A stretch of 64,000 nt of DNA, taken from NCBI GenBank assembly GCA_946560065.1, contig CAMNUE010000004.1, forward strand, positions 1-64,000. Reading direction: 5' to 3'. The notes under the pieces were generated by a model, which made no database searches, had not been told where the DNA came from, and saw only the letters and a list, made by a program, of their open reading frames with translations. This DNA is from an uncultured bacterium. Its GTDB lineage: Bacteria > Bacillota_I > Bacilli_A > RF39 > UBA660. Positions 13,582-62,154 of this stretch are shown here, in pieces (the stretch's first letter is position 1; the number at the start of each line of letters is the position of its first letter). A program made the position numbers and the translations under genes.

Positions 13582-16500
13582 ATGAAAATGGTAAATGGTA
13601 GTAGTAGTTCTTTGAACGGCAAAAGAGGTTTTACTTTGGTAGAACTTCTTTGTGTAATTGTTATTTTGGGAATTATTTCTGTTGCATCTATTGCAGGAGT
13701 TTCTAAATTAATTTCTAAATCTAAAGAAGAAAAAACAAATCAAAATGAGAGGACTGTTTCGATGGCTGCTTCAAGTTATTTACAGTCTAATAAGAGTATT
13801 TTGCCTAAGTCTATTGGGCAGGTAGAAAGAATTTCTGTCAAAGATTTATATGATGCTAAATATATAACTTCGGAGATTGAAAATTCGAGTGGAGAAAACT
13901 GTATGAAAGAGTCTTATGTTAGAATTTATAAGTATTCTAATACAGGATATACATATACACCATATATTTTCTGTGGTGATGAGGTACCACCAGAAGAGGA
14001 AGTTGTTCCTAAACCAAGTGGAAGTGCTAAGTTTGTAGAGAAAAATGGTGATGAATATAAGGATGCAGATTTTAATAAAATAAAGAATGCTATGGTACTT
14101 TTTTCGTTTGATGGTGGTAAAAATAGCGATGATAAACCGTTAGCAATTGAAAGTTATAATTATTCTGTTTCTGTTAAAATTAATACTGATGATAATTTGA
14201 GAGAGATTTATAATTCGGGTACGTTAAGTGCGAATAACGAAAGTCATATCGAGTCAGAAATCGCTTTGAAAGATTATGTTAATATATCAAATGTTAGTAC
14301 ATTTTATGTTAAGTATTCAGTGAGAAATATTGCGGGTGGTTTTTTTGAAAGTACTGCGACACTAGGAGAAAAACAGGCTTCTTATCAAGATAAGATTCCT
14401 CCTACTTGTGATAACATTACTAATGAGGCACCAGATGAAAATACTTGGTATAATTTAAAAACTCAGGAAAAAAGTCGTGTTGTTTCAATAGATTGTAAAG
14501 ATGGAGCAGGTGAAAGTGGTTGTGTTAGAGGAAGATATTCGAAGACATGGCCAAATTCTGATGAGCCATCTGCTGAGTATTCATGGATTACTGTGAAAGA
14601 TAATGCTGGCAATAAAAATGTTGAAACATGTTCTCATGGAAGTGCTGGTTGTTGTTTAGTTCGTGTTAATGTTGATAGTATTACTCCTACTATAAAAGTA
14701 CTTAATGCGTATAAGAGTGATGCTAATGGAAAACCAACTGGTTCTAATATTTTAAGTGCTTCTTTAACTGCAGATAAAGAAACTGATGGTACTTTTAATA
14801 TTCTTAGTAATGGATATAAAAGCGGTTCTACTACAAATGGATGGTTTAATGGAAAAGATTATCCTTATGGTGTTGTTTATGAAGTACAACTTAGTGATGA
14901 CCTTAAATTAGCTGGTTATACTTGGAAAACTAATAAACCTAATACTGGAACAGAAAAGTCAACAGATATAACTAGTGCTGGTGCAGGTCCAGAGGGATTA
15001 CTTAATGAAAAAGCGTTTATTAGTACTAATGGTAATTCTAGTCAAAAGGTTTATATAAGATTTACAGAAGATGGCTTTAGATATGGTGTTTTAAGAGTTT
15101 ATGATAAGGCTGGAAATAGTACTAGCGTAGGAATATATGCTAATTTGGATAAGGTTGCTCCACCAGCACCAAATCCGACTTCATCTAATGATTTGGCACT
15201 TGTAAAAATTGATGGAACTACGGTTATAGGTTCATATACATTGAAAACTTGGAGTAAAGATTTTATACGAGGAACATATAATGTTACATCTTTAAGAAGA
15301 GATAATGTTACTGGTATAGAAATGTCTGGTTTTGATAAATTTGTAACAACTATTAAAAAAGGTGATGGAAATTCTTATACGGCTAATACAGAAACTTTTG
15401 ATGTTAAAGGTGGCAAAGATGATAAATCCTTTGATGGAGTAAATACTGCTGTTGTTATATCTTGCGACAGGGCTGGAAATTGCACAAAACCTTCAGCACC
15501 TGCTGAAATGTGGATTGATAGAACTGCTCCTACTTGTAAGACTACAGGTGGAAGTACAAAATGGATAGGAATTAATTCTCCTGATCCTGTTATTAAAGGT
15601 ACTTGTAATGATGCTGGTGGTGCAAGAGCCAGTGGTTGTGCTCAAGCAGAGATTTCTTATACTTTCAAGGTTGCTGTTGGTAAGAATCTTGTTACGTCAA
15701 CTGCTGGGCCTGGTCCTAATGGTGGTAAGGGAGTTGTAAAAGATAAGGCAGGTAATACCGCTGACTGTGCAGCTAATCAGACACTAAAGATTGATCATAC
15801 AAGACCAAAATGTAAAGTGAGTGATAATGATCAATGGACAAAAAAGGATAGAACAGTTTATTATAAGTGTGCGGATGAAAGTAAAGGTAGTGGATGTCCA
15901 GATCCATCGTCTAATGATAACAAGCCAGGTTCTGGTGGTTATCAAAAAAAATGGACTGAAAGTAAGAAAAAGGTAAAAGTTGCGAAATTTACTATAAATG
16001 ATAATGCTGGTAATACAACTGAATGTTCTGCAAAAACACTTGATGTATATGTCGATAAGACTGGGCCTACTTATTCAAGGGGAGGTTCTATTTCTGGAAA
16101 TACTGTTAAGGCTGCTAAGTATAGTGATAAATTTACAGATAAGGAAATAGGAAGTGCTGAGAATGACTATAAGGTTGCTGGCGCTGGTGTAGAAAAAGTT
16201 CAATATTGTTATGTTGGTAATGGAGAAAACTGCTCTTGGAAGAAAGATAGACGTACTGGACCTAACAGTTCTTGTAATGAAACGGTTAAAGTTTATGCTA
16301 GAGGTGTTGATGAATTAGGCAATATTTCAAAAAAGGAAAAGTATCTTGGATCATATAAGACTAGTAATTGTTGCAATGATACTAATTGGGGACAATGTCC
16401 TTGGTATACTGCTTGTCGTAGAGGTATAACTAGTACCTATAATGATCCAGGTGCTACTAGTTGGATGGGTGCAGTTTGTCATCAAAGTGTTCCTTCAAGT

Positions 16501-16710
16501 TTCTGGGGTGGTGGAGGCTCTTGTAGTGGGTCTACTTACTTGTATGTTACTGAAAAGGGAGGCAAAAGATGGAAAATTCATTATACTGGTGGACAAGGTG
16601 GTTCAAGAGTTTCACCTAGTTCTGGACATGCTTCTGGATATATTTATTCTAACTGTGTAGATAAATCTAGAGCAAATGCTATTTGTCAATATAGTGATTG
16701 TCCAGGATAG
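13582..16710 (+). CDS. Giant type IV prepilin-like adhesin with Ig-like repeats
   Basis: 1042 residues. A class III prepilin signal is present: basic leader, G16|F17, then FTLVELLCVIVILGII as the N-methylated helix, with Glu at position +5. After a pilin-like first domain (to about 140) come repeated extracellular beta modules, each opening with a D-x-x-x-P-T-like boundary (near residues 271, 365, 523, 646, 738, 825) and containing DNAGN/DKAGN motifs like those of bacterial Ig-like domains. The last 110 residues are rich in cysteine and glycine (CCNDTNWGQC, GGGGSCSG). Typical major pilins have 130-200 residues, so this is probably a tip or minor pilin carrying a binding region. The partner PilD and GspF genes are at 49127 and 47617. 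It shares a unit with the next anchored protein. Confidence 0.82.
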   Translation: MKMVNGSSSSLNGKRGFTLVELLCVIVILGIISVASIAGVSKLISKSKEEKTNQNERTVSMAASSYLQSNKSILPKSIGQVERISVKDLYDAKYITSEIENSSGENCMKESYVRIYKYSNTGYTYTPYIFCGDEVPPEEEVVPKPSGSAKFVEKNGDEYKDADFNKIKNAMVLFSFDGGKNSDDKPLAIESYNYSVSVKINTDDNLREIYNSGTLSANNESHIESEIALKDYVNISNVSTFYVKYSVRNIAGGFFESTATLGEKQASYQDKIPPTCDNITNEAPDENTWYNLKTQEKSRVVSIDCKDGAGESGCVRGRYSKTWPNSDEPSAEYSWITVKDNAGNKNVETCSHGSAGCCLVRVNVDSITPTIKVLNAYKSDANGKPTGSNILSASLTADKETDGTFNILSNGYKSGSTTNGWFNGKDYPYGVVYEVQLSDDLKLAGYTWKTNKPNTGTEKSTDITSAGAGPEGLLNEKAFISTNGNSSQKVYIRFTEDGFRYGVLRVYDKAGNSTSVGIYANLDKVAPPAPNPTSSNDLALVKIDGTTVIGSYTLKTWSKDFIRGTYNVTSLRRDNVTGIEMSGFDKFVTTIKKGDGNSYTANTETFDVKGGKDDKSFDGVNTAVVISCDRAGNCTKPSAPAEMWIDRTAPTCKTTGGSTKWIGINSPDPVIKGTCNDAGGARASGCAQAEISYTFKVAVGKNLVTSTAGPGPNGGKGVVKDKAGNTADCAANQTLKIDHTRPKCKVSDNDQWTKKDRTVYYKCADESKGSGCPDPSSNDNKPGSGGYQKKWTESKKKVKVAKFTINDNAGNTTECSAKTLDVYVDKTGPTYSRGGSISGNTVKAAKYSDKFTDKEIGSAENDYKVAGAGVEKVQYCYVGNGENCSWKKDRRTGPNSSCNETVKVYARGVDELGNISKKEKYLGSYKTSNCCNDTNWGQCPWYTACRRGITSTYNDPGATSWMGAVCHQSVPSSFWGGGGSCSGSTYLYVTEKGGKRWKIHYTGGQGGSRVSPSSGHASGYIYSNCVDKSRANAICQYSDCPG

Positions 16711-43731: not shown

Positions 43732-45945
43732 ATGATGGTGAGAAATTCTAAAAATGGTTTTACATTGGTGGAATTGTTGGTAGTGATGGTTATCTTAGGT
43801 ATTATTACTGGTATGGCATTTCCACTAATTAGAAAAATAACTATGGATGGAGAAAATAAGAAATATACAGTCTATCGTGATAGTTTAACATCAGGTGCTA
43901 AGGTTTATGTTGATTCTTATGGTGATGATTTGTTTGGACATATGAAATCTGGTTGTGCTTATATTCCCTATAAAGAATTAGCATCAAAATCTTTAGCAAA
44001 GGAAATATCTGTTGACGGTATTACGTGTGATACTGAAGAAACATATATAAAAGTTATTAAAATTGATAATAGATATAGTTATACTACTTATATGGGGTGT
44101 GGTAATAAAAAAGAAGGTGCTGGTGTTAATGTTGTGAAGCGTTTTCCTGAATATATTCCTAAAATGGATGAGGAAAATTGTGGTTATGGAAAAACAACTG
44201 TATCTATAAAAGGAAATCCTGATACAACAACGGTTCCAGAAGAAAAAAGTCTTAGTGTAAAAGTTACTTTACAGAGTGCTACAGGATTACTTAGAAGTCC
44301 TAATATTGTTTATGGTTGGAGTCAAAAAAGGGAAGTTTCCGGAGTGACTACTTGGTCAAAACTTAATTTTAAATCGCCTTCAAGGAAAGAACAAGAAAAG
44401 ATTATATTTGATGAGAATAAGTCAGTTGAAGTGTTGCAATCTGTTGCATCTCCAAATGGCGCAACAGGAGACTATTATTTAATTATCAATATTGAAGAAT
44501 TATATGATTTAGCTGGAATGGCGTATGAAGGTGAAAAATATGTTTATTTAGGACCTTATAGATTAGATAATGTGGAACCTGATTTAAGAGATTCTCGTGT
44601 TGTTTCTTCTGTTTCTGGTTATAATAGTTTGGATCCTAGATTAGAACTTAATGCTACGGATAATTATACTCCAGAAGATAAATTGAAAATATGTATATCA
44701 TATGATAAAGACAGTTGTAAAAAGTCAGCTACTGAAATTGAAAAATATAATAAATATGTGAAGAATAAGAAATTAGATAAAGTCGCTACTAAATATGATG
44801 GATCTGTTCATAAAATATTTGTAACAGTTGCGGATAGGGCTGGAAATTATAGAACAAAAACTTTCAGTTATCGAGTGGCAAGGAAATATAAATTGACTTA
44901 TAATTCAAATGGTGGTTCAGCATGTTCTCCTGCTTCTAAAGATGCTTTTGAGAATAGTTCTTGGGGAAGTTTGTGTACTCCACGTAAATCGGGCTATGAT
45001 TTTGTAGGTTGGAGTAATAAGAAAGATGGAACAGGGACTATTATTAATTCATCTACAATTGCTTCTAAAGATATGACAGTGTATGCAATATGGAGGGCAA
45101 AATCATATAAATTAACTTATAATTCTGAAGGTGGTTCTGCTTGTGCAACAAAGATTGGTTATTATGGAAATACTTGGGGAGGATTATGTACTCCAACTAG
45201 AACTAGTTATATATTTGAAGGTTGGTATACTGATAAAAATGGTAAAGGAACTTTGATTACTTCAAGTACAAAAGTAAGTTCTGATTTAGCAGTGTATGCG
45301 AAATGGAAATTAAATGAGAAAACTTTTACAGCAACGCTGCATTATCAAAATGGAGCCCATTTATGGAATGGTGGTAGTGCTTCAGTTAAATACAGTTGTA
45401 AAACAACAACAGGTAGCTGCAGTATAAATTTACCAACTGTTAAGAATCTTCCTGGTCATAGTGGTTGTAAAGTTGCGTATTCGAACTTATTTGCTGCACT
45501 AGGATGGTCGACGAATCCTAATGCAAAATCTGGTGTAACAGGAAATGTTCCAATTAGTTCTAATGTTGATTATTATTCGATTATAGTTCCGAAGTCTGAA
45601 TATATAAATGCAAAAAGGTTCACTGTTGAACATTATACTTGCGATGGTGGGAAAAATGGTTCATCAAGAAATGTTTATAATAGAAGTGCAGCAAAGAGTA
45701 ATAGTCTTTTGTCAGACAAAAGTTATATTGTAGAGACACACTCATTTACATGGAATGGAACTTGGGCTGTTAATACATCAGCTTATAATAACTGTAAGAA
45801 TCCTTCTAAAGACAATGGTGATTGTGAGTGGTTGTATTTAGTTGGAAAAGGCGGTTTATGTAGAAAGGGTGCAGATAAGCCAAAGAACAATCTTAAGGGA
45901 TGTCCAAGTAACGTTTACATTAAAGCTACACAATTAAATTTTTAA
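43732..45945 (+). CDS. Large prepilin-like surface protein with InlB-type repeats
   Basis: 737 residues. Class III prepilin signal RNSKNG9|FTLVELLVVMVILGII. Residues 30-125 form a short pilin-like domain closely related to the C-terminal part of the protein at 56054 (shared DLF...GCAYI.Y, VDG..CDTE, YTTYMGC). Further beta domains follow, with ADRAGN near 368, and two InlB/Listeria-Bacteroides-type repeats at about 386-456 and 459-527 (KLTYNSNGGSACS, then GWSNKKDGTGT; LTYNSEGGSACA, then GWYTDKNGKGT). The C-terminus is cysteine-containing. It is probably exported and cut by PilD (49127) and displayed as a minor pilin or adhesin. It has its own promoter and terminator between queA and tgt. Confidence 0.82.
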   Translation: MMVRNSKNGFTLVELLVVMVILGIITGMAFPLIRKITMDGENKKYTVYRDSLTSGAKVYVDSYGDDLFGHMKSGCAYIPYKELASKSLAKEISVDGITCDTEETYIKVIKIDNRYSYTTYMGCGNKKEGAGVNVVKRFPEYIPKMDEENCGYGKTTVSIKGNPDTTTVPEEKSLSVKVTLQSATGLLRSPNIVYGWSQKREVSGVTTWSKLNFKSPSRKEQEKIIFDENKSVEVLQSVASPNGATGDYYLIINIEELYDLAGMAYEGEKYVYLGPYRLDNVEPDLRDSRVVSSVSGYNSLDPRLELNATDNYTPEDKLKICISYDKDSCKKSATEIEKYNKYVKNKKLDKVATKYDGSVHKIFVTVADRAGNYRTKTFSYRVARKYKLTYNSNGGSACSPASKDAFENSSWGSLCTPRKSGYDFVGWSNKKDGTGTIINSSTIASKDMTVYAIWRAKSYKLTYNSEGGSACATKIGYYGNTWGGLCTPTRTSYIFEGWYTDKNGKGTLITSSTKVSSDLAVYAKWKLNEKTFTATLHYQNGAHLWNGGSASVKYSCKTTTGSCSINLPTVKNLPGHSGCKVAYSNLFAALGWSTNPNAKSGVTGNVPISSNVDYYSIIVPKSEYINAKRFTVEHYTCDGGKNGSSRNVYNRSAAKSNSLLSDKSYIVETHSFTWNGTWAVNTSAYNNCKNPSKDNGDCEWLYLVGKGGLCRKGADKPKNNLKGCPSNVYIKATQLNF

Positions 45946-47497: not shown

Positions 47498-47616
47498 TAT
47501 ATCACCTCTCATATTAATATATGTCAATTGTCTAAAAAGTTTAAATTTATATTTAAAAAAGATTTTAATTATGGTAAAATGTAATAAGATAGGATAATAA
47601 AAGGAAGGTTGATTTG

Positions 47617-49110
47617 ATGTTTGGACGTAAAAGAAAAAACAAAACTATGTCTGTAGCTGAAGTTCCTAATACAGAATCTACTTTAGTTAATCAAACCACT
47701 GGACCTGTGGGAGATCTTTTAAATGACTCAGAACAGACTAGCACTTTTATGCAACAGCCAGAACAACCTACTACTCAAATGGCTGTTCAAAATGTCAATT
47801 ATAACAATACAATGCCAGGTGCTACTGGTTCTACTCAGCCTGAAGTAACATTGCCAGATGATCCTTCTGTTGTTACAGAACGTAGAGATAAAGTTAAAAG
47901 ACCAACTAAAGATTATCGATATACGATTATTAATTCATTTGGTAAAAAAGAACAAGGTACTTTTGAGGCAGAATCTGAAAATGATGTTAGAAATTTCTTA
48001 TTGACGCAAGATTATCAGGTTTTGGAAGTAAAAGAAAGAAGTAAATTCGATATTGATATTGGTGGTAATGGAAAATTGGGAGCTAGTGATTTAGCATTCT
48101 CTCTTACGCAACTTTCAACATACATTAAGTCTGGTATACCATTAGCTGATTCGGTACGAATACTTGCTAAACAAACAAAGAAAACTAGTTTAAAGAAAAG
48201 TTTTAATCAATTAGTTTATCAATTATTAAAAGGAGAAAGTTTATCTGATGCAATGTTGATGCAGGAAACTGTTTATCCTAAACTTCTTGTTAATATGGTT
48301 AAAACTGCTGAAATGACGGGTGATTTACCATCAATTTTGGACGATATGTCAGAGTATTATACATCAATGGATCAGACACATAAGCAAATGAAGTCAGCTA
48401 TGACTTATCCTTTAGTTGTCTTGACTATTGCATTTGGTGTTTTAATTTTTATGTTAACTTATTTGGTTCCACAATTTTCAGCTATGTTTGAAGAAAATGG
48501 TGCTCAAATGCCAGCTTTAACCTTAGCTATTTTGGCAGCGAGTGATTTTATAAGAGAAAAGTGGTATATAATATTATTAGTTGTTGTTGCTTTTGTCTTT
48601 ATATTTATACAGTTATATAAGAGAAGTCAAAAATTTAGGGAAACAATCCAAGTAATGGTTATGCATATGCCAATTTTTAAAGATATTGTAATTTATAATG
48701 AAATTGCTAATTTTACTAAGACATTTGCTTCATTATTAAACCATGGAGTTTTCATTACTGATAGTATGGAAATTCTTTCTAAGATTACTAATAATGAAAT
48801 ATATAAAAAGATAATTAATAAGACATTAGAAAATTTAGGTAAGGGTGATTCTATTTCAACTGCTTTTAGAGGCGAATGGGCGATTCCTGTGGTTGCTTAT
48901 GAAATGATTGTTACTGGTGAAACTACTGGACAATTAGGTAGTATGATGGAAAAGGTTGCTGAGCATTTTCAAATGCTACATAAAAATATTATTGATCAAA
49001 TGAAAAGTTTAGTTGAGCCAATTTTGATTTGTTTCTTGGCGGTGGTTGTTGGAATAATTCTTTTATCAATTATTCAGCCAATGTTTTCTATTTACAGTCA
49101 GGTACAATAA
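47617..49110 (+). CDS. Type II secretion/type IV pilus inner membrane platform protein
   Basis: 497 residues from ATG 47617 (TTG 47614 also in frame) after AAGGAAGG. A disordered T/Q/P-rich N-terminus of about 110 residues is followed by the YRYTIINSFGKKEQGTFEAES domain typical of GspF/PilC and by two T2SSF domains starting near 161 and 361 (LSTYIKSGIPLADSVRIL; FASLLNHGVFITDSMEIL), each with membrane helices. It is the platform that couples pilin polymerisation to the ATPase. The prepilin peptidase gene follows at 17 bases. No PilB/GspE ATPase is in the window. Confidence 0.9.
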   Translation: MFGRKRKNKTMSVAEVPNTESTLVNQTTGPVGDLLNDSEQTSTFMQQPEQPTTQMAVQNVNYNNTMPGATGSTQPEVTLPDDPSVVTERRDKVKRPTKDYRYTIINSFGKKEQGTFEAESENDVRNFLLTQDYQVLEVKERSKFDIDIGGNGKLGASDLAFSLTQLSTYIKSGIPLADSVRILAKQTKKTSLKKSFNQLVYQLLKGESLSDAMLMQETVYPKLLVNMVKTAEMTGDLPSILDDMSEYYTSMDQTHKQMKSAMTYPLVVLTIAFGVLIFMLTYLVPQFSAMFEENGAQMPALTLAILAASDFIREKWYIILLVVVAFVFIFIQLYKRSQKFRETIQVMVMHMPIFKDIVIYNEIANFTKTFASLLNHGVFITDSMEILSKITNNEIYKKIINKTLENLGKGDSISTAFRGEWAIPVVAYEMIVTGETTGQLGSMMEKVAEHFQMLHKNIIDQMKSLVEPILICFLAVVVGIILLSIIQPMFSIYSQVQ

Positions 49111-49126
49111 GGGAGGTAATTATTAT

Positions 49127-49900
49127 ATGAATATTTTATATTTAATTATCTTTTTTATTTTAGGTTTATTAATGGGGTCATTTTTTACTGTAGTTGGATC
49201 AAGACTTCCAAAGGGTGAAGGATTTATTACCAATAGAAGTCATTGCGATAAATGTCATCATGAGCTTTCTTTAGTGGATATGATTCCTTTACTATCATTT
49301 TTGATTTTTAGAGGTAGATGTCGATATTGTAAAGGAAAGATTGATGAGTTATCTTCTTATATGGAATTTTTTACAGGAATTTTATATGCACTTGCTTTTT
49401 ATGTTTTTGGTTTTTCTTGGAATTTATTAATTGCTCTTGGGATAGTGGCAATGTTGATTATAATTTCTGTTTCAGATATTTCTTATTTGGTGATTCCTGA
49501 TGAAGTTTTGATTTTTTTTGCTGGTTATTTTTTGATAATTAAATGTTTGAGTTTGGGTGTAATGGAAGCACTTATTTCGATATTATCTGGTCTTTCTTTA
49601 TTTGGAATAATGTATTTGATAATGATAATTGGAAATTTCTTATTTAAAAAAGAAAGTCTTGGTGGTGGAGATATAAAGATGATGTTTGTCTTTGGAGTGG
49701 TTTTAAATCCGCTTTTAGGACTTATTGTTATCTTTTTAGGAAGTCTATTAGCTCTTCCGGTATCATTATTTATTTTGATAAAAAAGCATGAAAATTTAGT
49801 TCCTTTTGGACCATTTTTATTGATTAGTTTTGCATTTATATTTTTTACAGGAATTAATTTTAATATGATTGTTGACTTTATAAAAATGCTTTCATTTTAG
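49127..49900 (+). CDS. pilD: Prepilin peptidase (type IV leader peptidase, A24)
   Basis: 257 residues, about eight membrane helices. The N-terminal methyltransferase-type domain carries both CxxC pairs (C40/C43 and C65/C68). The catalytic aspartates are D117 (VSDISY) and D182 in GGGDIKM. It cuts prepilins at the G|F bond and methylates the new N-terminus. Candidate substrates in this window are at 13582, 43732 and 56054. Good GGGAGG site; paired with the GspF gene. Confidence 0.93.
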   Translation: MNILYLIIFFILGLLMGSFFTVVGSRLPKGEGFITNRSHCDKCHHELSLVDMIPLLSFLIFRGRCRYCKGKIDELSSYMEFFTGILYALAFYVFGFSWNLLIALGIVAMLIIISVSDISYLVIPDEVLIFFAGYFLIIKCLSLGVMEALISILSGLSLFGIMYLIMIIGNFLFKKESLGGGDIKMMFVFGVVLNPLLGLIVIFLGSLLALPVSLFILIKKHENLVPFGPFLLISFAFIFFTGINFNMIVDFIKMLSF

Positions 49901-56053: not shown

Positions 56054-57223
56054 ATGATTTATGATATATGTTGTTATTTTTTGATGTTTTTTATCTATTC
56101 TGTTGTTGGGTACTTGGTTGAAGTTACATGCGTAAGTATAGATAGAAAGAAGTGGATTTTTAGTAGAGGTTATTTAATCGGACCATATTTACCAATATTT
56201 GGTTGTGGTTCAATGATTATAACTTTCTTTTTACAAAAATATAAATGTGATCCACTTGCTTTGTTTGTATTAGCGACTGCTTCTTGTTGTGTACTTGAAT
56301 ATTTTACTAGTCTTATTTTAGAAAAAATATTTAAATTACGTTGGTGGGATTATTCTGATAAGAAATTTAATTTAAATGGGAGAATTTGCTTAGAGACAGG
56401 TGCTTTATTTGGCTTAGGTGGAGTTTTTATAATTGAAGTTTTTAATCCATTGATTACTATGTTACTTAATGTTTTTCCTGAGATGTTGGTAATAGTACTT
56501 GGAATTATATTATTGATTACAATTGTGGCAGACTTTTGTTTGTCAACTTATACGATTGTTAAGTTAAAAATTGATACAAGTAAATATCTTAATAAAGATG
56601 CAACTAGAGTTGTAAAAGAAGAAGTTAGTAAATCACTTAGAAGATATAGATACTTTCATAACAGATTACTTAAGGCTTTCCCTTTACTTTCAAATGATAA
56701 TAATAGTTTTTCTGTAATAAAAGAGATTATAAGTAAAAAACGTAAAAGGAAAAATAATAATCTTAATATAGAAAACAATAAAGGATTTACTTTGGTAGAA
56801 TTGGTTGTAACAATTGCAATTTTAGGAATTATTACAGTAATATCTTTTCCTTTAATAAGAAATATTATTAATAATAATGATGCAAAGAAGTTTGAACAAT
56901 ATTCTGATATTTTAACTGAAGCAGCTAGTTTATATGTAGATAATTATAATGAAGATTTATTTTGCCGTAAAGATACTGGTTGTGCATATATAAAGTACAG
57001 TGATTTAAAGAAAAAAAATTTAATTAAAGATATTCAGGTTGATGGTGTTAGTTGTGATACAGAGAATACATTTATTAAGGTTGAGAAAAATAAGGGTAAT
57101 TATAAATATACTACTTATATGGGTTGTGTAACTAAGGGAACTAGTGATTATCAGGTCATTTTACCTGAAAAAGCAACACCTCATGTGATTGACACCACTG
57201 CGTGTCCTGTTTGTTGGTCATAA
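56054..57223 (+). CDS. Fusion of a CmpB-like membrane protein to a type IV prepilin
   Basis: 389 residues. Residues 1-232 are a complete CmpB-like (putative ABC-transporter permease) protein: YDICCYFLMFFIYSVVGYLVE, WIFSRGYLIGPYLPIFG, WWDYSDKKFNLNGRICLE, and the closing RYFHNRLLKAFP. With no stop or new start codon it continues through KKRKRKNNN into NNKG244|FTLVELVVTIAILGII and a 145-residue pilin domain with cysteines (GCAYIKYSDL, VSCDTE, YTTYMGC). The pilin half is a close paralogue of the start of the protein at 43732. Cutting at G244|F245 by PilD would release the pilin from a polytopic carrier. No ATG, GTG or TTG lies in frame between residue 210 and the cut. Confidence 0.85.
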   Translation: MIYDICCYFLMFFIYSVVGYLVEVTCVSIDRKKWIFSRGYLIGPYLPIFGCGSMIITFFLQKYKCDPLALFVLATASCCVLEYFTSLILEKIFKLRWWDYSDKKFNLNGRICLETGALFGLGGVFIIEVFNPLITMLLNVFPEMLVIVLGIILLITIVADFCLSTYTIVKLKIDTSKYLNKDATRVVKEEVSKSLRRYRYFHNRLLKAFPLLSNDNNSFSVIKEIISKKRKRKNNNLNIENNKGFTLVELVVTIAILGIITVISFPLIRNIINNNDAKKFEQYSDILTEAASLYVDNYNEDLFCRKDTGCAYIKYSDLKKKNLIKDIQVDGVSCDTENTFIKVEKNKGNYKYTTYMGCVTKGTSDYQVILPEKATPHVIDTTACPVCWS

Positions 57224-57416: not shown

Positions 57417-60400
57417 ATGAATGATTTTAAAGGGGAATTTTCAAACTTTAAAACAGTTTTAGTAAAAAATAGAAGTCTATTTTTATCTTTTATATTAATT
57501 TTTGTTTTAGGAATTATTGCTATTCCAAGAATATTTGCACAGCCTCAAGCAGTAAAGAGTGTAGAGATTTTTTCTGAAAGATTGGATTATAATGAAAAAG
57601 AACCAGGTGCTTGGAAGATAGATAAGTCTGCGAAGTGGGTAGAAAAGGGTATGGCAGAGATTACTTTTGATGTCGATACTATTATGAAAAGTAATACTAA
57701 ATACACTGATGTTTTATTTGTACTGGATGTTTCTGGTTCAATGGATGGTGAGAAGCTAAATAGAGTAAAAGCAGATAGTATTCAGTTAATTGAAAGTTTG
57801 CTTTCTAATGATAAAAATAAAGCTGGACTTATTACTTTTGATTCTAATTCTCAAATTGTTTCACCTCTTACTAATAATAGGGAAGAGTTAGTTGAAAAGA
57901 TAAACTCATTAACGACTGCAGGTTCTACTAACTATTATAAGGCTCTAGTAAATGTTGATAGTGTTTTAAAAGATTACGTTAAGGATAGTGACAGAGAGTG
58001 TATTGTATTATTCTTGACTGATGGCTATCCGAATGAAGGGACACCTAATGAGGAAGGACAATATAGTTATTTGAAGAGTCAATATCCTTTCATTATAATA
58101 AACGGAGTTCAATATGAAATGGGTAGTACTATACTAGATCCAATAAAGAAAGTTAGTGATAATCAAGATATTGCGGATATGGAGACTTTGAATAATATTT
58201 TATTTGAAGCATCTATTACACCAATCTCTTATGAAAACTTTGAGATAACAGATTATATCGATACAAATTACTTTTATGTAGATAGCGAAAGCGATATAAA
58301 GGTTAGTCAAGGAAATATAATGTTCGATAAAGATAACCAAAAGTTTACTTGGAAAATGGATAATCTTAAATCTGGTTTAAAAGCTAAAATGACAATTAAA
58401 GCCAAGTTAAAGGAAGAACTAATTGGAGAAGGTGGATTTTATCCAACTAATGAAAAGGAAGAAATTAAGAGTAAGATAGATAAATATGAGGAAGAGATTA
58501 TTAGTCTAAAAACGCCAGTACTTTCTGATAATTATAGAGTAATATATGACGGTAATGAACCAGATGGTTGTAGGGTAGAAGGAGTACCTGCAGAAAAGCA
58601 ACATACAGTATTCGATACAGTTGCGATAAGTGATAGTGCTCCAAAGTGTGATGGATATCAATTTAAAGGTTGGAAGATAGTTAATGATAATGTTGAGAAA
58701 GTCAATGATGATTATTTTATGATGCCAGAGGAAGATGTTACCTTAAAAGCTACTTGGAGTAAATTAGATATAAATAAGTCTATGGAAGGAACAATTAAAG
58801 AAAAAATCACTTTATATAAGCAGTTAAAACAAGATGCTGAAAATAATAATCATGCGAAGAAATATACTGGAGATACTAGTACATTTAATGGAAAAGAAGA
58901 TGTTTACTATTATTATGGAGAAACTCCAAATAATAATGTAATTTTTGGAGGTTTTTGTTGGAAAATGTATCGAACTACGGATACTGGTGGCGTAAAAATG
59001 GTTTACAATGGTGAACCAGATTCTGAAGGTAAGTGTGGAGGAAATAGAGAAAATCATGTAGGCTATGGAAATAGAACTATCCAGTCTTTTCCGGCATATT
59101 ATAGTTATGGAACAGATTATACTTATGATGAAGTATCAAAAACATTTACACTAGCAGGTGATGTAGAACAAGTAACTTGGAATTCAACTACGTATCCAAG
59201 TTTAATAGGAAAATATACTTGTCGAAATACGACAGGAAGTTGTAGTACATTATATTATGTAGAATCATATAGTTCAGATAGCTCAGCTTATGTTTTATCA
59301 TTAAACTCTACAACAAATTATTCCTTCATTGGGTCAAGCGTCTTTAATTCAAGGGATAGTTCAGTAGCTGATGTTGGGTATATGTATAATAAAAGATACA
59401 CATATAACTCAAAAAGTAATTTCACTTCTAGCACAACAATATTAGGTAGTTCATTGTTATCAACGAACTATTATTATGCTGATGAAGCAATTTGGGGAAC
59501 TCCGACAAGTAATAGATATAATTTAGTTGATAAATTTAAGGTTGATTCTGAAGATGAATATTCTAATTTATTAGGTAAGTATACATTTCTTAGTAGTACT
59601 GAGTCTGATGTTAGTAGTGTATCTTTTTACATTACAGGAGTTGATGGCTCAAAAGCATACTTCATTTCTTTAATTGAGGGTAAAGATATTTCATCCGCGA
59701 GTACAAGTTATTACTTTGCAGATTCTTTAATTGGTGATGGAACAGGAAAACAAATACTAGATCCAGAATCAACAAAAGAAGTAAATGCAACAGAATGGTA
59801 TGATAGTTATGCAGATTATAAAAATAAATTCTATTGTCCAACACCAGATTGTACAACAGTTTACTATGTAACATCAACATCAAATACTTCAATGACACAT
59901 GTAAATGTTGCAGATGATTATATGTATGGGAATTCATTTACATATGATAAAGATACCGGAATGTATACTCTAAGTGGAGAAACTCAGCATTTCTATGATT
60001 GGCCAAATAATTATAGTAAGTTAGGTAATACCCACTATACATGTTGGAATACGAGTGGAACATGTCAAAAAATTTCTTATATTTATTACACTTTTAATGG
60101 AAATACATACTACATAGATTTAGAAAATGGGATAAGTGTTGAGACATTATTAGATGAAATGTTATATGATGAGAATATCAATACAACAAACTCTACAATC
60201 AAAACATTAATTGATGCCTGGTATTCAAAAAATATGGCAGAGTATACAGATTATTTAGAAGATACAGTGTGGTGTAACGATCGAAGTATAAGTAATAAAA
60301 GTGATAATGGGTGGAATCCGAATGGAGGAAGTATTACCACTTATTTAAACTTTGGTAATAGCAGTGACTTAACTTGTCAAAACAAAAATGATAGATTTAC

Positions 60401-60716
60401 AGTAAGTAGAGAAAATGGAAATGGAGCTTTAACTTATCCAATTGGCTTAGTTACAGGTAAAGAAGAAAACCTAACATTTTCATCAAATAGTTCACCATTA
60501 TCTTTGAAAAGATATAACTACTACTGGTCGCTTGACCCTTACTTTTTCAGTTACCATGCGCTTGGGCATCTTTTAAATAGTAGGGGTGTTTGGTTTAACT
60601 ATAGTATTAACAGTTCGTATGGCGTTCGTCCGGCAGTTTCACTTCGTGCAGGTATTATGTACGAAAGTGGTAATGGTACTGTTGATAGTCCATATATTAT
60701 TGATATGGATAGTTGA
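57417..60716 (+). CDS. VWA-domain surface protein with internal repeats
   Basis: 1099 residues. Cytoplasmic start, one membrane helix (about 20-38) with a possible signal cut after FAQPQA, then a von Willebrand A domain (about 97-265) with the metal site DVSGSMDG (D104-S106-S108) and LTDGYPNEG. An InlB-like beta module follows (about 375-450: VIYDGNEPDGC, GYQFKGWK, TLKATW). Then come roughly 130-residue repeats beginning near 561, 655 and 835 (pattern YxYxxxYTYD...L.G...W...Y..L..KYTC.NT.G.C). The end resembles DUF6273 (YYWSLDPYF, GVRPAVSLRAG). No LPXTG anchor is present, so it is held by its N-terminal helix or released. Probably an adhesin. Confidence 0.8.
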   Translation: MNDFKGEFSNFKTVLVKNRSLFLSFILIFVLGIIAIPRIFAQPQAVKSVEIFSERLDYNEKEPGAWKIDKSAKWVEKGMAEITFDVDTIMKSNTKYTDVLFVLDVSGSMDGEKLNRVKADSIQLIESLLSNDKNKAGLITFDSNSQIVSPLTNNREELVEKINSLTTAGSTNYYKALVNVDSVLKDYVKDSDRECIVLFLTDGYPNEGTPNEEGQYSYLKSQYPFIIINGVQYEMGSTILDPIKKVSDNQDIADMETLNNILFEASITPISYENFEITDYIDTNYFYVDSESDIKVSQGNIMFDKDNQKFTWKMDNLKSGLKAKMTIKAKLKEELIGEGGFYPTNEKEEIKSKIDKYEEEIISLKTPVLSDNYRVIYDGNEPDGCRVEGVPAEKQHTVFDTVAISDSAPKCDGYQFKGWKIVNDNVEKVNDDYFMMPEEDVTLKATWSKLDINKSMEGTIKEKITLYKQLKQDAENNNHAKKYTGDTSTFNGKEDVYYYYGETPNNNVIFGGFCWKMYRTTDTGGVKMVYNGEPDSEGKCGGNRENHVGYGNRTIQSFPAYYSYGTDYTYDEVSKTFTLAGDVEQVTWNSTTYPSLIGKYTCRNTTGSCSTLYYVESYSSDSSAYVLSLNSTTNYSFIGSSVFNSRDSSVADVGYMYNKRYTYNSKSNFTSSTTILGSSLLSTNYYYADEAIWGTPTSNRYNLVDKFKVDSEDEYSNLLGKYTFLSSTESDVSSVSFYITGVDGSKAYFISLIEGKDISSASTSYYFADSLIGDGTGKQILDPESTKEVNATEWYDSYADYKNKFYCPTPDCTTVYYVTSTSNTSMTHVNVADDYMYGNSFTYDKDTGMYTLSGETQHFYDWPNNYSKLGNTHYTCWNTSGTCQKISYIYYTFNGNTYYIDLENGISVETLLDEMLYDENINTTNSTIKTLIDAWYSKNMAEYTDYLEDTVWCNDRSISNKSDNGWNPNGGSITTYLNFGNSSDLTCQNKNDRFTVSRENGNGALTYPIGLVTGKEENLTFSSNSSPLSLKRYNYYWSLDPYFFSYHALGHLLNSRGVWFNYSINSSYGVRPAVSLRAGIMYESGNGTVDSPYIIDMDS

Positions 60717-60780: not shown

Positions 60781-62154
60781 ATGAATTATAAAAGTGATAT
60801 ATGTAAAAATATATTTAGAGGATATGATATAAGGGGAATCTATCCTGGTGAAATTGATGAAGATACTGCATATACTATTGGACTTGGTTTTGGTAGTTAT
60901 ATTAAGAGTATTGGGAAAACTACTTGTGTTATTGGACATGATAATAGGTTAAGTGGTGTTTCTTTATATAGTGCTTTAATGCAAGGAATTTTGGAAACAG
61001 GAATTGATATTATTTCTTTGGGACTTTGTACAACTCCAATGTATTATTATGCTTGTATTAAATTAAATGTGTATAGTGGAGTTATGGTTACTGCTTCACA
61101 TAATCCAAAAGATGACAATGGATTTAAATTTGCATTTGATGAGAAAGGTAATTGTAAGGGGCAAGAAATACAAGACTTCTTAGAATATATTTTAAAAGGA
61201 GATTTTTCTAAAGGATTAGGAAAGGTTACTGATTATGATATTACTCCTGATTATTTAGATTTATTTAGAAATAATTTTAGTTTTGGTGATAGAAGAGTTA
61301 AGGTTGTGGTTGATCCTGGGAATGGAACAAGTAGTGTAATTGTTAAGAAATTATATGATTTGTTTCCAATTGATGTTACATATATAAATGATGAGAGTGA
61401 TGGAACTTTCCCTAACCATCATCCAGATCCTTGTGTTGAGGCAAACTTAGAACAATTAAAACAAAAAGTGCTTGAAATTGGTGCTGATGTTGGAGTTAGT
61501 TTCGATGGAGACGGAGATCGTATGGGGATGGTTTCTAATACTGCGAAGTTTATTCCGACTGATAAATATATGATTATGATTGTTAGAGATATAATTAATA
61601 AAGTTTCTAAGAAAGAGTTTTTATGTGATGTTAAGTGTTCTAAGAGTTTTAGTGATGAAGTAGAAAAACTTGGAGGTAAGTGTATTACTTATAGAACTGG
61701 TAATTCTTATACAAAAGCGGCTGTTAGAGATATGGATTTGGCATTTGGTGGAGAGTTATCAGGACATGTTTATTTTAGGGATAGATGGCCAGGTTTTGAT
61801 AGTGGACTTTATGCAGGGTTAAGATTATTAGAAATTCTTTCTAATACATCTAAAAATGTTGAAGAATTATTGGAAGGAATAAACGAATATTACTCTACTG
61901 AAGAATTAAAATTTAAGAGTTCTGATGATGTTAAATTTGGTATTATTGATAAGATTTTAGAGTATGTTAAGAGTAAGAATTATAATTATTTAGATATTGA
62001 TGGTGTTAAGGTATTATTTGACGATGGTTGGGCTCTTGTTAGGGCTAGTAATACTGGACCAAATATTACTGTTAGGTTTGAAGCAAATACAGAGGAGCGC
62101 TTGGCAGCTCTGCAAAAAGAATTTATTGATTTGATTGAAGAATATAATAAGTAA
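60781..62154 (+). CDS. Phosphomannomutase/phosphoglucomutase
   Basis: 457 residues. FRGYDIRGIYPGEI, catalytic TASHNPKDDNG (serine near 104), metal loop FDGDGDRMG near 246, sugar-binding GGELSGH and phosphate-binding RASNTGPN are all present, the AlgC/ManB type of alpha-D-phosphohexomutase. It interconverts hexose 1- and 6-phosphates for surface polysaccharide precursors. AGGAGG precedes the start, and a hairpin follows the stop. Confidence 0.92.
   Translation: MNYKSDICKNIFRGYDIRGIYPGEIDEDTAYTIGLGFGSYIKSIGKTTCVIGHDNRLSGVSLYSALMQGILETGIDIISLGLCTTPMYYYACIKLNVYSGVMVTASHNPKDDNGFKFAFDEKGNCKGQEIQDFLEYILKGDFSKGLGKVTDYDITPDYLDLFRNNFSFGDRRVKVVVDPGNGTSSVIVKKLYDLFPIDVTYINDESDGTFPNHHPDPCVEANLEQLKQKVLEIGADVGVSFDGDGDRMGMVSNTAKFIPTDKYMIMIVRDIINKVSKKEFLCDVKCSKSFSDEVEKLGGKCITYRTGNSYTKAAVRDMDLAFGGELSGHVYFRDRWPGFDSGLYAGLRLLEILSNTSKNVEELLEGINEYYSTEELKFKSSDDVKFGIIDKILEYVKSKNYNYLDIDGVKVLFDDGWALVRASNTGPNITVRFEANTEERLAALQKEFIDLIEEYNK

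Follow-up and report, generated by a model that had tools for sequence, protein, structure and literature searches.

Type IV prepilins of class III, which are processed by PilD in the type IV pili of monoderm bacteria, combine a short hydrophilic N-terminal leader with a G/F (or A/F) cleavage site, a glutamate at position +5 and about 20 hydrophobic residues, and their fold is a long N-terminal helix followed by a beta-rich head. Cleavage by prepilin peptidases takes place close to the membrane on its cytosolic side, and the length of the leader varies (PMC10191384), that of Streptococcus sanguinis PilE1/E2 being 18 residues (PMC5389465). In the modular pilins, the pilin bears a grafted extra domain, which is retained after leader cleavage (PMC10191384). 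A literature search found no account of a polytopic membrane protein fused to a prepilin, which is weak evidence of absence. Here, we describe such a fusion in a 64,000-nt stretch of DNA (hereafter the window; contig CAMNUE010000004.1, assembly GCA_946560065.1) from an uncultured gut-type bacterium of the RF39 lineage (Bacilli).

The fused frame and its two parts

A single 389-codon frame on the plus strand of the window (56054..57223) encodes a CmpB-like membrane protein joined to a type IV prepilin, for a total of 389 aa. Pfam searches identified PF06541 (ABC_trans_CmpB) at residues 10-164 (E 5.9e-45, 153.6 bits for a gathering score of 25.9) and PF07963 (N_methyl) at residues 241-264 (E 1.7e-7, above the curated cut-off), and the class III signal was also detected above cut-off by TIGR02532. 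The cleavage site is G244/F245 (56783..56788), with a glutamate at +5. It is preceded by a basic, Asn-rich linker (KKRKRKNNNLNIENNKG/F) and separates the CmpB-like part (residues 1-244, 56054..56785) from the mature pilin part (residues 245-389, 56786..57220). In-frame scanning revealed no stop codon between the TTG at 56540 and the cleavage site and no further ATG, GTG or TTG over the same interval, this TTG lying 81 codons before the glycine. In a comparison of 38 distinct pilins (the window one included) drawn from this genome and its relatives, the open frame upstream of the cleavage glycine spanned 247 codons in the window pilin versus 7-46 in the 37 others, and the nearest start was 82 codons away (counting the glycine) versus 3-13. 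The initial annotation had described a CmpB-like protein running without stop or new start into a class III prepilin; the open reading frame, the Pfam domains and the start/stop scan confirm this description and show the fusion to be genuine within the assembly. In contrast to the short hydrophilic leader of PilD-processed prepilins, the leader as encoded here is polytopic and 244 residues long.

Five membrane helices are predicted by structure modelling in the CmpB-like part (residues 2-31, 47-63, 67-93, 113-140 and 143-170), instead of the six-helix carrier initially proposed, and these are followed by a Lys/Arg-rich tail. The pLDDT of the fusion model is about 80-98 across residues 1-170, the region for which this model was used, the pilin being modelled separately. 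CmpB orthologues are 40-55% identical to this part. Its designation as transporter-like agrees with the name of the PF06541 family, which is its sole support: no ABC ATPase or substrate-binding protein adjoins CmpB, whose neighbours are ZIP, Sm_multidrug_ex, a VWA protein and a phosphomannomutase. No PDB sequence match was obtained for the CmpB-like part, and Foldseek returned nothing significant with the fusion model, a query that included low-confidence parts.

The pilin half is not decayed. It is 34-49% identical to 31 homologues, keeps all invariant columns of the family, and deviates at 5 of 36 conserved positions, compared with 1-7 in the homologues. The G/F site, the glutamate at +5 and the stretch of about 20 hydrophobic residues are all present, as in PilD-processed class III prepilins. 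The separate pilin model (mean pLDDT 88.6) exhibits a 56-residue helix (residues 10-65) followed by strands, and has thus the predicted pilin fold with its long N-terminal helix and beta-rich head; Foldseek gave no confident PDB match with this model.

The two-gene state in relatives and the junction

Searches for the CmpB family gave matches in 35 of 39 genomes of the genus and in 333 of 386 genomes of the family, and a species-wide collection supplied 80 loci. Many of the closest CmpB genes directly precede a phosphomannomutase gene. In the window, the corresponding phosphomannomutase/phosphoglucomutase gene (60781..62154, +) is of the kind that comes next after CmpB or the CmpB-pilin pair in many relatives, and conservation of the neighbourhood comprising a DHH-type phosphatase, a small export and/or ZIP protein, CmpB, the pilin and the phosphomannomutase extends to both flanks of the window copy. 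Six relatives encode a homologous pilin as its own gene after CmpB, with the same two families, the same order and the same setting before the phosphomannomutase. Unlike the window, these pairs have a stop codon and a separate ATG or TTG start, 4-11 nt overlaps or short gaps, and leaders of 5-6 residues. The two genes overlap by 11 nt in G031 (L013) and G234 (L123) and through an ATGA in G013 (L015/L041), the pilin of G021 (L024) starts with a TTG located 12 nt past the CmpB stop, and gaps of 46 nt and about 110 nt occur in G324 (L043/L121) and G376 (L134), respectively. In two more genomes of the G376 genus, a pilin signal lies 128 or 366 nt after CmpB. At locus L193 (G458), where CmpB is separate and the pilin signal follows it by 128 nt, the ten residues before the cleavage glycine include no methionine.

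Based on the CmpB tree, the window copy belongs to a supported six-member clade (95/88), in which three members have a separate adjacent pilin (L013, L015 and L024) and two have none at this place (L012 and L016). Since relatives carry a stop and a separate start between the two halves, the fusion is best regarded as a single-lineage derivative of a two-gene pair. This is the outcome that the initial annotation had itself set against its proposal when calling for a comparison of fused and separate genes in relatives. The two members lacking a pilin gene, together with the many other pilins of this genome (11 class III signals), could suggest that the pilin half is a dispensable passenger heading for loss, translated but useless in a young fusion. 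This is improbable, as the pilin half is intact across 145 codons and the constraints of its family are kept.

The junction (56749..56770, +) corresponds to the site where the CmpB stop and the pilin start are found in relatives. DNA alignment placed an ATA (Ile239, 56768..56770, +) opposite the pilin starts of relatives (ATG, ATG, TTG and ATG), ahead of the same six-residue leader, and this codon is an apparent relic of the pilin start. Read in frame +1, the same position gives a TAG (56769-56771), at the place of the TGA in the ATGA overlap of L015. Homology with relatives in the CmpB frame extends to 56752, so that the frame change most likely occurred in the last ~18 nt before the ATA, and the Lys-rich CmpB tail is now in the pilin frame. 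As judged from these alignments, two separate changes lie between the window sequence and the two-gene state. Programmed frameshifting or slippage at an A6-C run in the CmpB tail was set aside, the fusion being readable without any frame shift.

This double change bears on whether the genome has in reality two genes, joined by a sequencing or assembly artefact. The junction is rich in homopolymers and repeats (A6, A5, AAT repeats), and the draft assembly consists of 25 contigs with 6% contamination. However, none of the single indels tested between 56641 and 56782 (one base; two bases in part) gave a canonical pilin start within 15 codons, and a substitution at the ATA alone restores the start but leaves the frame fused, so that a substitution and an indel would both be needed. 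Moreover, alignment with relatives keeps the surrounding genes (49.5 to 64 kb) in a single frame, and synteny is preserved on either side. Because the ancestral pilin start codon has also been lost, a lone assembly error seems unlikely.

The exact position of the ATA at the ancestral start also raises the question of whether the pilin is translated separately from an AUA, overlapping in frame with the CmpB read-through. AUA starts have been documented in S. aureus infC and ccpN, with a predicted reliance on extended Shine-Dalgarno motifs (PMC13009471). Unlike these cases, no Shine-Dalgarno motif was found at positions -20..-5 of the window ATA (GGAAAAATAATAATCTTAAT), while one is present for 43 of the 49 plus-strand genes of the window. 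In addition, CmpB would read through into the pilin regardless, and initiation at this codon is considered quite unlikely.

Predicted processing of the fusion protein

With a probability of roughly 0.55, we favour a lineage-specific, near-neutral fusion of neighbouring CmpB and pilin genes, whose product is split by PilD at G244/F245; within this reading, expression, topology, cleavage and near-neutrality are what we infer. The ancestor would have had an adjacent, often overlapping gene pair, with CmpB followed by a short type IV pilin. The CmpB stop would have been lost when the frame changed within the AT-rich end of its tail, and the pilin start codon would have decayed from ATG to ATA. The resulting product is expected to be one polypeptide having five membrane helices with a cytosolic C-terminus and a basic cytosolic linker, after which the pilin helix would cross in-to-out and leave the head outside, as in normal prepilin topology. 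PilD would most likely cut at G244/F245, on the cytosolic face, releasing a 244-residue CmpB and a normal mature pilin. Such a fusion might be viewed as a small polyprotein with a protease site already at its junction, at little cost to the cell.

The predicted topology draws on the charge distribution of the CmpB-like part. Of the loops, only 28-47 and 93-114 are basic, and so is the tail; these three regions lie on the same side of the membrane, and the positive-inside rule thus points to a cytosolic C-terminus, which would also make the tail, the linker and the cleavage site cytosolic. On this model, G244/F245 is probably within reach of the PilD encoded in the window (49127..49900, +), which was identified by its A24_N_bact and Peptidase_A24 domains. 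The window also encodes a PilC/GspF platform protein (47614..49110, +), and a PilB-type ATPase is encoded elsewhere in the genome. Free CmpB orthologues are ~233-258 residues long in most of the close ones, compared with 244 after the predicted cleavage; a CmpB of usual length together with an ordinary pilin would make the fusion nearly neutral.

The proposal that, in nature, PilD cuts a type IV pilin away from a polytopic membrane protein of five helices, the whole membrane protein being the leader and the prepilin peptidase a polyprotein processor, is tentative, at somewhat less than even odds. Against cleavage, a 244-residue leader with five helices is far longer than the PilD substrates described in the literature compared. 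The initial annotation had offered two mechanisms, and the fused frame appears to fit the first of these, namely PilD cleavage at G244/F245. The second, in which the protein stays whole and anchors or caps the pilus base, is consistent with the helices, as membrane insertion of the fused frame would require no cleavage. Yet the G/F site, the glutamate at +5 and the pilin fold are kept as in short-leader homologues, PilD is encoded in the genome, and to our knowledge an unprocessed prepilin is not assembled, all of which make a whole anchor very unlikely.

If PilD cleaves the fusion protein as predicted, a leader need not be short and free for a prepilin peptidase to act, and the enzyme can process a site located past a protein with several helices. 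In that case, the stop and the start that separate two genes can also be lost almost neutrally when their junction is already a protease site. As a one-genome case, the locus is mainly a natural test construct for the leader-length limits of PilD.

Distribution of the fusion and other CmpB or pilin arrangements

The CmpB-pilin fusion was seen in one genome only; the matches listed for the family (386 genomes), for the genus (39 genomes) and for two targeted genera (20 genomes) included no other. The initial annotation had suggested that a pilin with a transporter-like protein as its leader would be a new arrangement; given the separate genes of the six relatives, this is reduced to a gene fusion in a single lineage, for which a self-restoring mechanism is plausible. 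The idea of a new, general class of pilins led by a transporter was rejected since no second case occurred among the listed genus and family matches, and comparison of these genomes indicates that the fusion is not a widespread new architecture and that pilins with a transporter-like leader do not form a conserved class. Long open frames in G376, G132, G217 and G342 were examined as candidate fusions and rejected, as they correspond to ordinary CmpB ORFs (213-250 aa) lying close to other long ORFs. A real CmpB fusion was found in G024 (L034:1495-2907), but its partner is a phospholipid-type acyltransferase.

CmpB is also fused to PLD/cardiolipin-synthase-like proteins in Anaerocolumna (L097 and L106:3962-6451). 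As in the window, a relative with two adjacent genes exists for these proteins, the PLD/cardiolipin-synthase-like protein of L103 (4886-6445) being encoded by a separate gene adjoining CmpB. In the window as in the acyltransferase and PLD-type fusions, another protein continues the CmpB tail, a kind of joining that has thus occurred more than once. The partners in these other fusions look like lipid enzymes, whereas that in the window is a predicted protease substrate, and the acyltransferase and PLD/cardiolipin-synthase-like partners hint that CmpB may act in membrane lipid metabolism.

The window fusion also resembles the modular pilins in that a pilin is combined with an extra domain, but here this domain precedes the cleavage site and would be lost on processing. 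Very large modular pilins occur in the window itself (13582-16710 and 43732-45945), each combining a class III signal and a pilin domain with downstream Ig-like or Listeria-Bacteroides repeats, and several paralogues of this kind are found per genome in the genus. Between the fusion and the phosphomannomutase gene, positions 57417-60716 encode a 1099-aa VWA/InlB-repeat surface protein that is missing there in the syntenic relatives examined.
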